DNA from: Thiomicrorhabdus lithotrophica
GTDB taxonomy: Bacteria; Pseudomonadota; Gammaproteobacteria; Thiomicrospirales; Thiomicrospiraceae
NCBI RefSeq assembly: GCF_029201445.1
Contig: NZ_CP102381.1
Coordinates: forward strand, 1 to 64,000
Reading direction: 5' to 3'
DNA: 64,000 nt
Made by a program: the position numbers and the translations under genes. The notes beneath the pieces were generated by a model. The model ran no database searches, was not told the DNA's origin, and saw nothing but the letters and a program-made list of their open reading frames with translations. The first letter of the stretch is position 1. Each line of letters opens with the position of its first letter. Positions 24,972 through 62,336 of the stretch are shown here, in pieces.

Positions 24972-25532
24972 TTAACGAAGTACTCTACCCGTTTTAGCAT
25001 CTCTAATTTGAGTAGGCTTATCTAAACCACCTAGCTCAGCACAAATGCAGTAAACTTTATCTTCAAATTCAGTTCTAACCTCATCACAAGACTTTGCGGG
25101 GGGGTGAGTGGTAACATTAGCACTTGTAGAAACAATAGGCCCACCAAAAACTAAACATAATTGTTGCACAACAGGATGATCTGAAACTCTAATCGCTACC
25201 GTATCTCTGCCACCCGTAATCCAGTCTGGCATCGGTTTTTTAATGGGCAAAACCCAGGTAATTGGGCCCGGCCAACTATCCAGCACGTTTTTTTCCCACT
25301 CAGTACCAATCAACTCAATCCAATCTTGAATTTGCTCTACAGAAGCAGCTACCAATATCACACCCTTTTCCATTGGGCGTTGTTTCACGTGAAACAGCTT
25401 TTCTACTGCTTGCTGATTAAATGGATCGCAACCTAAGCCATACACCGCTTCAGTTGGGTAAGCAATAACTTCCCCTTGATTAAGCAAGGATGAAGCTTTA
25501 ACAAGCTGTTGTTGCAATAAACTTTCTGACAC
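24972..25532 (-). CDS. tsaC: L-threonylcarbamoyladenylate synthase
   Basis: TsaC makes threonylcarbamoyl-AMP from threonine, bicarbonate and ATP for t6A37 modification of tRNA. The 186-residue protein is the short YrdC-type form: IAYPTEAVYGLGCDPFN, then KQRPMEKGVILVA, ending with a conserved RDAKTGRVLR. It starts with GTG (25532-25530), with AGG upstream at a good distance. It follows thrB by 61 bases on the same strand. Its coding sequence contains a perfect ParB parS-type site (25,381), read as Leu-Phe-His-Val-Lys. Confidence 0.94.
   Translation of the reverse strand: MSESLLQQQLVKASSLLNQGEVIAYPTEAVYGLGCDPFNQQAVEKLFHVKQRPMEKGVILVAASVEQIQDWIELIGTEWEKNVLDSWPGPITWVLPIKKPMPDWITGGRDTVAIRVSDHPVVQQLCLVFGGPIVSTSANVTTHPPAKSCDEVRTEFEDKVYCICAELGGLDKPTQIRDAKTGRVLR
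25381..25396. other. parS: parS centromere-like site (ParB binding)
   Basis: TGTTTCACGTGAAACA is a perfect 16-base palindrome and an exact match to the bacterial chromosomal parS consensus TGTTNCACGTGAAACA. It lies within the tsaC coding sequence. Chromosomal parS sites cluster near replication origins and are bound by ParB, which loads SMC. A second near-perfect copy lies at 62,321. Confidence 0.88.
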
Positions 25533-45296: not shown

Positions 45297-45908
45297 TTAT
45301 TTTAAATAAGTGGTCACTTCATTAACGGGTTTACGTTTAGGCGGTATTTTAGGGCGGCAATTTTCGTCAATATTTCCCATATACAAAGCACCAATAATTT
45401 CAATCTGTTCACGTTGTATATCTAACTTTTGATAGGTTCTAACATCTTTAATAATGGGACCAGTACTCCATTGAACACCTATTTTTTGTTGCCAAGCCAT
45501 TAAATGAAAGTTCTGAATAGCACAAGCACAAGCAGCATAATCTTCATTTTTTACCACTTCATTTTCTGATAATTTCTGACCTACTAAAACCACTTGAGGA
45601 ATCGCTAAAAACTTTTGTAAAGCTTTTTCATAAAAATATTCATAACAATCAGGATCTGTTTGAGATTTTTTAGTCGCTCTATTGTCTGCATAAATATCAG
45701 CTAACTCTGGTTTAATTTCATCACCCACTACCCAAAATAACCAAGGTTGGGTTAATTTATGATTAGGTGCCCAAATAGCAGCTTGCAAACAATTTTGTAG
45801 TTTTTGCTCTTCAATTGGGTGGTTTTCTTTAGATAAAAATTGATAACATGTACGTCTTGATTGAATCAATTTTAGAAACGATTCTGTTTCAATATTGATA
45901 GATTGCAT
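45297..45908 (-). CDS. Nitroreductase family protein
   Basis: A 203-residue flavin (FMN) oxidoreductase: N-terminal LKLIQSRRTCYQFL (the RRS-type FMN phosphate site), APNHKLTQPWLFWVV, and C-terminal LDIQREQIEIIGALYMGN. The physiological substrate is not evident; members reduce nitroaromatics, quinones or flavins. Gene order recQ-nitroreductase on one strand, divergent from the OxyR-like gene across a DnaA-box-rich gap. Confidence 0.88.
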   Translation of the reverse strand: MQSINIETESFLKLIQSRRTCYQFLSKENHPIEEQKLQNCLQAAIWAPNHKLTQPWLFWVVGDEIKPELADIYADNRATKKSQTDPDCYEYFYEKALQKFLAIPQVVLVGQKLSENEVVKNEDYAACACAIQNFHLMAWQQKIGVQWSTGPIIKDVRTYQKLDIQREQIEIIGALYMGNIDENCRPKIPPKRKPVNEVTTYLK

Positions 45909-45954
45909 TTGTTAAAATATCCTTTAATTATAGTTTGAATTCATAAATAAGCCC

Positions 45955-46120
45955 TATGGATAACCTATGTATTTTTGTGGATAACTTTACCTTAAATTAA
46001 ATATTGAATTTTTATCCACAATTCACGCACACTTACACACATACTTTATCAGAAACTATACACACAACTTAATCACAAACTAACTAATTGATAAAGTAGT
46101 AGAATCTTAAGTTATCTACA
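45955..46120. promoter_or_regulatory. DnaA-box cluster with AT-rich flank (possible origin or DnaA-binding locus)
   Basis: In the 328-base gap (45909-46236) are two perfect DnaA boxes, TGTGGATAA at 45976-45984 (minus) and TTATCCACA at 46012-46020 (plus). One-mismatch boxes occur at 45955-45963 (TATGGATAA), 46056-46064 (CTATACACA against TTATACACA) and 46112-46120 (TTATCTACA). The sequence from 46121 to 46235 is very AT-rich, resembling a duplex-unwinding region. Two parS-type sites flank it at 21 kb to the left and 16 kb to the right. It may be oriC, a DnaA-titration site, or a DnaA-regulated promoter of the OxyR-like or nitroreductase gene. Confidence 0.6.
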
Positions 46121-46236
46121 CAATTTCTTATACTAATAAGAATAATAAGAAGTTATATATAAAGAAATATAAACATTACTTACTTAAACTATTATCCAAT
46201 CAAAACCCTATTTAAAAATCTTAAAAGGTCACTTTA

Positions 46237-47154
46237 ATGACACTAAACGAATTGAAATACATTGTTGCTGTAGCAAAAGAAAAACATTTTAGAAAAGCTT
46301 CAGAAACTTGTTTTGTGAGTCAACCAACTTTAAGTGTTGCTATTAAAAAACTTGAAGATGAATTAGACATAAAGTTATTTGAAAGACGAAAACAAGATGT
46401 GTTAGTTACCCCAATAGGTAAACAAATTATTTCTATAGCAGAAGAGATTTTAGAACGCAGTAAAGATATCAAACAAATAGCTAAAGAATCTCAAGGTAAT
46501 TTAAGTACAGAATTAAAAATTGGCGCTATTTATACAATTGCACCCTATTTGCTACCTAAACTTATTCCAAGTTTTCACAAACTCGCTCCAAATATCCCAT
46601 TAGTGATAGAAGAAAATTACACCCATGTATTAGCAGATAAATTGCAATCTGGAGAGTTGGATATCGTTATTCTTTCATTACCATTTGATGAGCCAAATAT
46701 TGAAACTTATAGCTTATATGAAGAAAGTTTTAGCGCTATTATTCCAAAAGATCACCCTTTAGCTAAATCAAAAAAACCTATTAACCTTCAGGAAATTGAA
46801 GATGAAACAATTTTATTATTAGGAATAGGACACTGCTTTAGAGATCAAGTGGTAGAAGCTTTTCCCAATTTGATGCATATGAATTATCAAAGTAGTCGTT
46901 TACAAAAAACCTTTGAAGGTAGTTCATTAGAAACTATTCGTTATATGGTTTCATCTGGTGCTGGTATCTCAATTTTTCCATGTACATCACTCTCAGAACG
47001 TGATGAGGAGCTCTTTAGTATAAAACCATTAGCTAACCCTGTCCCAAAAAGAACGGTTGCCCTTGCATGGCGTAAGACGTTTTCTAGAATGCAGGCTTTA
47101 GAATTGTTTAAACAAGCCATTGAAGATATCGAAATACCTTGTACACTATCTTAA
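46237..47154 (+). CDS. OxyR-like LysR-type regulator lacking the second redox Cys
   Basis: A 305-residue LysR-type regulator with winged HTH (MTLNELKYIVAVAKEKHFRKAS at the N-terminus, quoted in part) and the substrate domain. The OxyR hallmark GHCFRDQVVEA is present with the peroxidatic Cys at residue 200, but the position of the resolving Cys (E. coli C208, here 209) is Phe (TTT at 46861-46863 instead of TGT/TGC). The rest follows OxyR (SSLETIRYMVSSGAGISIFP). It may still sense peroxide through Cys 200 alone, or sense another signal. Upstream lies the DnaA-box cluster. Confidence 0.88.
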   Translation: MTLNELKYIVAVAKEKHFRKASETCFVSQPTLSVAIKKLEDELDIKLFERRKQDVLVTPIGKQIISIAEEILERSKDIKQIAKESQGNLSTELKIGAIYTIAPYLLPKLIPSFHKLAPNIPLVIEENYTHVLADKLQSGELDIVILSLPFDEPNIETYSLYEESFSAIIPKDHPLAKSKKPINLQEIEDETILLLGIGHCFRDQVVEAFPNLMHMNYQSSRLQKTFEGSSLETIRYMVSSGAGISIFPCTSLSERDEELFSIKPLANPVPKRTVALAWRKTFSRMQALELFKQAIEDIEIPCTLS

Positions 47155-62320: not shown

Positions 62321-62336
62321 AGTTTCACGTGAAACA
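62321..62336. other. parS: parS-type site, second copy
   Basis: AGTTTCACGTGAAACA contains the full 14-base palindromic core GTTTCACGTGAAAC and differs from the parS consensus only at the first base. It lies in the intergenic gap just before a terminator. With the perfect site at 25,381 it gives two parS-type sites within 37 kb. Confidence 0.82.

Follow-up and report, generated by a model that had tools for sequence, protein, structure and literature searches.

The nitroreductase-family gene and the OxyR-like regulator gene found near 46 kb of the window (the whole stretch of DNA analysed, 64,000 nucleotides) are divergently transcribed and enclose an intergenic region, 45909-46236, within which the proposed replication origin lies. 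Its elements and the other landmarks of the chromosome are collected in Table 1. Two perfect and two one-mismatch DnaA boxes, including the high-affinity sequence TTATCCACA expected of an E. coli-type oriC, are located within 166 bp (45955-46120), with four additional two-mismatch boxes at 46033, 46056, 46069 and 46192. All boxes between 46012 and 46120 face the putative unwinding element whereas those at 45955 and 45976 face away from it, resulting in two opposed blocks. Opposed left and right blocks, an IHF consensus by the R1-like box and an AT-rich unwinding element with trio-like triplets next to an R1-type box are all hallmarks of E. coli-type origins. It should be noted that the IHF consensus alone is weak evidence, as the window contains 17 matches. 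The AT-rich tract at 46128-46178 is extreme, with only 0.005% of 50-bp segments in 264 kb being less stable. Clusters of at least three DnaA boxes (at most one mismatch) in 170 bp were found at two places in the 864 kb sampled, about one third of the 2,516,205 bp chromosome, namely at this locus and upstream of dnaA, a rarity that sets the cluster apart from chance occurrence. The original prediction had counted two perfect and three one-mismatch boxes in 166 bp; its perfect boxes were recovered, while the one-mismatch boxes number two. Its description of a following AT-rich tract (nearly the least stable DNA in 264 kb), divergent flanking genes and a position between two parS-type sites proved accurate.

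Table 1 Features of the proposed origin, its flanks and related chromosomal sites.
Feature	Position	Strand	Basis
Nitroreductase-family protein, left flank of oriC	45297..45908	-	PF00881
Proposed oriC (DnaA-box region and unwinding element)	45955..46192	.	Box cluster, conserved block, skew boundary
DnaA box TTATCCATA, one mismatch, distal block, faces away from unwinding element	45955..45963	-	Position kept in relatives, with degenerate sequence
Perfect DnaA box, distal block	45976..45984	-	Exact in 24/24 genus genomes with site visible
Perfect DnaA box, first of block facing unwinding element	46012..46020	+	TTATCCACA or TTATCCCCA in 24/24
Weak DnaA box TTACACACA, two mismatches	46033..46041	+	One-mismatch box at same position in many relatives
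Weak DnaA boxes CTATACACA and TTAATCACA, two mismatches each	46056..46077	+	Box scan
IHF consensus match TAACTAATTGATA, between R1-like box and its neighbour	46081..46093	-	Core TAA..TGA conserved
R1-like DnaA box TTATCTACA, one mismatch, adjoins unwinding element	46112..46120	+	Box scan, E. coli comparison
Putative DNA unwinding element, least stable 50-bp stretch of locus	46128..46178	.	Stability scan
DnaA-trio-like triplet tract TAATAAGAATAATAAGAAG, 13 bp past R1-like box	46134..46152	+	E. coli comparison
OxyR-like LysR regulator, right flank of oriC	46237..47154	+	Homology searches
dnaA, dnaN, recF, gyrB region, toward origin, lagging strand	176..7843	+	dnaA orthology, gyrB homology, lagging-strand skew
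Four-box DnaA array, 3x TTATCCACA and TTATTCACA (outside window)	chromosome 2516085-2516147, -296 to -233 from dnaA		Conserved in genus
parS site, perfect, left of oriC	25381..25396	.	Motif scan
parS site, one mismatch, right of oriC	62321..62336	.	Motif scan
Three more parS-type sites, right of oriC	chromosome 66232, 87666, 142591		Motif scan

Four of the five parS sites (62.3, 66.2, 87.7 and 142.6 kb) lie to the right of the array and one (25.4 kb) to its left; none was found left of dnaA. Further along the chromosome, 144001-164000 has a GC content of 46%, compared with 37-42% elsewhere, and a strong AT skew, possibly representing a ribosomal RNA operon.

The second box cluster precedes the dnaA block, in which the identities of dnaN (1574-2683) and recF (2855-3949) were assigned based on gene order and size. 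The chromosome record begins 175 bp before dnaA and the array was reached by continuing left on the circle. The earlier observation that these 175 bp contain no boxes is therefore correct as stated but misleading, the window edge having hidden the array. In this genome, TTGTTT, 16 bp holding TTATTCACA and TATACT form a sigma-70-like promoter. An alignment of 22 genus genomes revealed strong conservation of the -10 element and the spacer box, with the remaining boxes just upstream, and no conserved AT-rich or unwinding tract, the sequence diverging directly past the -10 element. Because it is part of such a promoter and lacks a conserved unwinding tract, the dnaA-upstream array most likely serves dnaA autoregulation, its promoter role being inferred from sequence.

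Strand composition and the replichore boundary

In sampled 20-kb stretches, GC skew is positive between about 64 kb and 1.22 Mb, negative from 1.25 Mb round to dnaA, and near zero or negative at 0-46 kb. Raw GC skew alone is too noisy because of gene direction. Transcription was separated from replication by calculating third-codon-position skew per strand, as most genes at 0-46 kb are located on the plus strand. The fourfold GC skew of plus-strand genes in this interval is -0.25 and of lagging type, the reference values being -0.28 for left-arm lagging genes and +0.16 for right-arm leading genes, and almost all genes from dnaA to the array share the sign of this skew. A beta-binomial change-point analysis using per-gene third-position and fourfold-site likelihoods placed the arm boundary at 46.2-48.1 kb. 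A boundary at dnaA is worse by 72 log units with fourfold sites and by 82 with third positions, figures that serve as a guide since genes are not fully independent. The suspected skew shift reported in the original prediction is thus real, with the third-position test placing it at 46-48 kb. The cumulative A-T curve reaches its maximum at 47.3 kb. Raw cumulative G-C, taken alone, has its minimum over 35-47 kb but is flat there, which counts against the proposed origin.

The 46-kb locus is situated at this strand-composition boundary, opposite dif, as is expected of an E. coli-type oriC. A dif-like site at 1,240,590 yields arms of 1.195 and 1.322 Mb from the locus, slightly less even than those measured from dnaA, and its position does not tell the two candidate origins apart. 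In this genome and in one relative, G014, gene direction switches at dnaA (-1.1 and -1.2 kb), whereas the switch in nucleotide skew falls at the array. From dnaA to the array (window 176-46000), head-on orientation to the fork applies to 83% of the coding bases, dnaA and gyrB included. Transcription of dnaA, dnaN and gyrB toward the locus, which had been listed as a point against an origin there, was borne out and places these genes on the lagging strand.

Conservation of the array in relatives

OxyR and dnaA searches covered 58 genomes. Each of the 24 Thiomicrorhabdus genomes with enough upstream sequence carries the array upstream of oxyR. The opposed box pair (45976 on the minus and 46012 on the plus strand) keeps a fixed distance of 36 bp start to start in 24 of 24 where it is visible, and the block around it, flanked by divergent genes, is conserved. 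The family's other genera retain part of the oxyR-upstream array; of two oxyR homologues checked outside the family, neither is preceded by it. In one draft genome (G007, contig C76) the oxyR orthologue beside the array contains three in-frame stops. Where oxyR and dnaA are found on one contig (21 genus genomes), they are separated by 28-82 kb, and dnaA is oriented toward the array in every case. In another draft (G031), dnaA consists of two overlapping matches (C4:367385-368753), probably due to a frameshift or an assembly error.

In six relatives sampled for skew, the raw minimum follows the array. In five of them, minimum and array are located at 83.2 and 81.7, 32.6 and 36.9, 62.5 and 63.8, 37.8 and 36.6, and 43.4 and 43.2 kb from dnaA, respectively. 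In a sixth, G035, oxyR lies on the opposite side of dnaA and so does the minimum (-36.0 kb, array at -28.6 kb). Agreement is within 1.7 kb in four of the six and 4-7 kb in two. Strand composition rejects dnaA as the boundary by 42-461 log units in these six genomes. In G024 and G035 the optimum falls 2-7 kb from the array, and fourfold sites alone place it about 21 kb off in G014 and about 7 kb off in G033. In the more distant G055, skew is too weak to date an origin move, and the minimum does not coincide with its oxyR (173 kb away) but lies 17 kb from dnaA.

A proposed oriC distant from dnaA

Based on its sequence elements, their conservation and a strand-composition boundary that tracks the array and not dnaA in relatives, we propose that 45955-46192 is very probably the primary chromosomal replication origin, resembling E. 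coli oriC. By analogy with E. coli, DnaA would bind the high-affinity boxes and fill the weak boxes in two opposed head-to-tail blocks, with IHF introducing a bend between the R1-like box and the adjacent box. A DnaA filament extending from TTATCTACA onto the TAATAAGAATAATAAGAAG tract would melt the AT-rich DNA, where helicase would be loaded to establish two forks. The dnaA-dnaN-recF-gyrB block would then lie 46 kb away on the lagging strand, head-on to the fork. The origin may once have been located beside dnaA and moved, or the dnaA block may have been inverted relative to the origin, either event perhaps being old enough for skew to equilibrate. This reading is tentative because other relatives show no gene-direction pivot at dnaA. 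Further, it is conceivable, if unlikely, that the lineage relocated its origin from dnaA to the regulatory DNA of an oxidative-stress regulator gene and has retained it at that site, dnaA-dnaN-recF-gyrB being head-on to the fork, and that oxyR and nitroreductase transcription leading out of the origin may couple redox state to initiation.

That the origin is instead the dnaA-upstream array, as in many bacteria, with the 46-kb cluster being a datA-like locus for titration of DnaA or hydrolysis of DnaA-ATP, appears highly improbable. Three perfect boxes and TTATTCACA upstream of dnaA, conserved in the genus, and the gene-direction pivot at dnaA would fit such an arrangement, but strand composition disfavours dnaA both here and in the six other genomes by the margins given above, and the array belongs to a conserved promoter, past whose -10 element no AT tract is conserved. 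The essential datA boxes all face one direction (PMC5742627), whereas those at 46 kb form two opposed blocks. The original prediction offered an alternative oriC or a DnaA-titration locus; the former is strongly supported, though for a primary origin and not an alternative one, and the latter is highly improbable. It had also named two findings that would speak against it, a box array left of dnaA, which does exist, and a skew minimum at dnaA or elsewhere, which was not seen, the skew boundary lying at the 46-kb locus here and tracking the orthologous locus in six relatives.

It is very unlikely that both arrays fire, with the oxyR array serving as the main origin and the one at dnaA acting secondarily or under certain conditions. 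Both are conserved and they are the sole clusters in the 864 kb sampled, yet the genes between them show near-fully lagging-type rather than intermediate skew, therefore initiation at dnaA must be rare, and the dnaA array has no conserved unwinding tract. It is also extremely improbable that the boxes merely mark a DnaA-controlled promoter region of the nitroreductase and oxyR genes. While the cluster does lie exactly in the divergent intergenic region and its neighbours are conserved, the skew boundary, the E. coli-like spacing from R1 to TAATAAGA and the extreme instability of the tract would be left unexplained.

Comparison with known origins and DnaA-binding loci

Origins distant from dnaA are already known, as in E. 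coli. We found no earlier description of the location, of its conservation across the lineage or of the head-on dnaA block, while the mechanism would be the known one; searches of the open-access literature yielded no origin description specific to Thiomicrospira, Hydrogenovibrio or Thiomicrorhabdus (DoriC predictions lay outside the search). Several complete genomes of these sulfur bacteria, Thiomicrorhabdus and its relatives, begin at dnaA as though it were the origin, which in the genus would be located 28-82 kb away. These genomes represent a natural series in which oriC-dnaA distance and relative orientation vary with the origin sequence constant and the head-on orientation of dnaA conserved. 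The series would help to test whether proximity to the origin, or transcription in the same direction, is required of dnaA.

The E. coli K-12 oriC sequence was fetched for direct comparison. There, R1 (TTATCCACA) is followed after 14 bp by TAATAAGAGATC; here, the R1-like box TTATCTACA is followed after 13 bp by TAATAAGAATAATAAGAAG. TAATAAGA is common to both, 14 bp past R1 in E. coli and 13 bp past the R1-like box in this genome. E. coli oriC contains a DUE-proximal block of boxes facing one direction, an IHF site by R1 and a reversed distal block (PMC5742627), and the 46-kb locus likewise combines opposed blocks, an IHF match next to the R1-like box and an AT-rich unwinding element. It differs in the sequence of the R1-like box and in the spacing of the weak boxes. 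The GATC sites and SeqA sequestration of a strict E. coli-type oriC were not found, 45941-46200 containing no GATC site and a search for SeqA giving no match. In E. coli, oriC is located between mnmG and mioC, and dnaA lies tens of kb away and points away from it. Here, dnaA is also tens of kb from the proposed origin but points toward it, the neighbours are the nitroreductase and oxyR-like genes, and mnmG (2.4725 Mb) is found with parB (2.4704 Mb) about 90 kb to the left, at 2.470-2.474 Mb.

Like datA and DARS of E. coli, the locus combines a DnaA-box cluster with an IHF site distant from dnaA. Those loci lie away from the skew boundary and have no unwinding element, whereas the 46-kb locus is situated at the boundary and contains a putative one; the one-way boxes, missing unwinding element and missing skew link that characterize a titration locus were thus not found. 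With dnaA-adjacent origins, for example those of B. subtilis and Pseudomonas, the 46-kb locus shares a box array, a spacer and DnaA-trio-like triplets, whereas the array beside dnaA itself has neither the conserved unwinding tract nor the skew boundary expected of such an origin. DnaA-trio triplets belong to a widely conserved unwinding system (PMC8287927).
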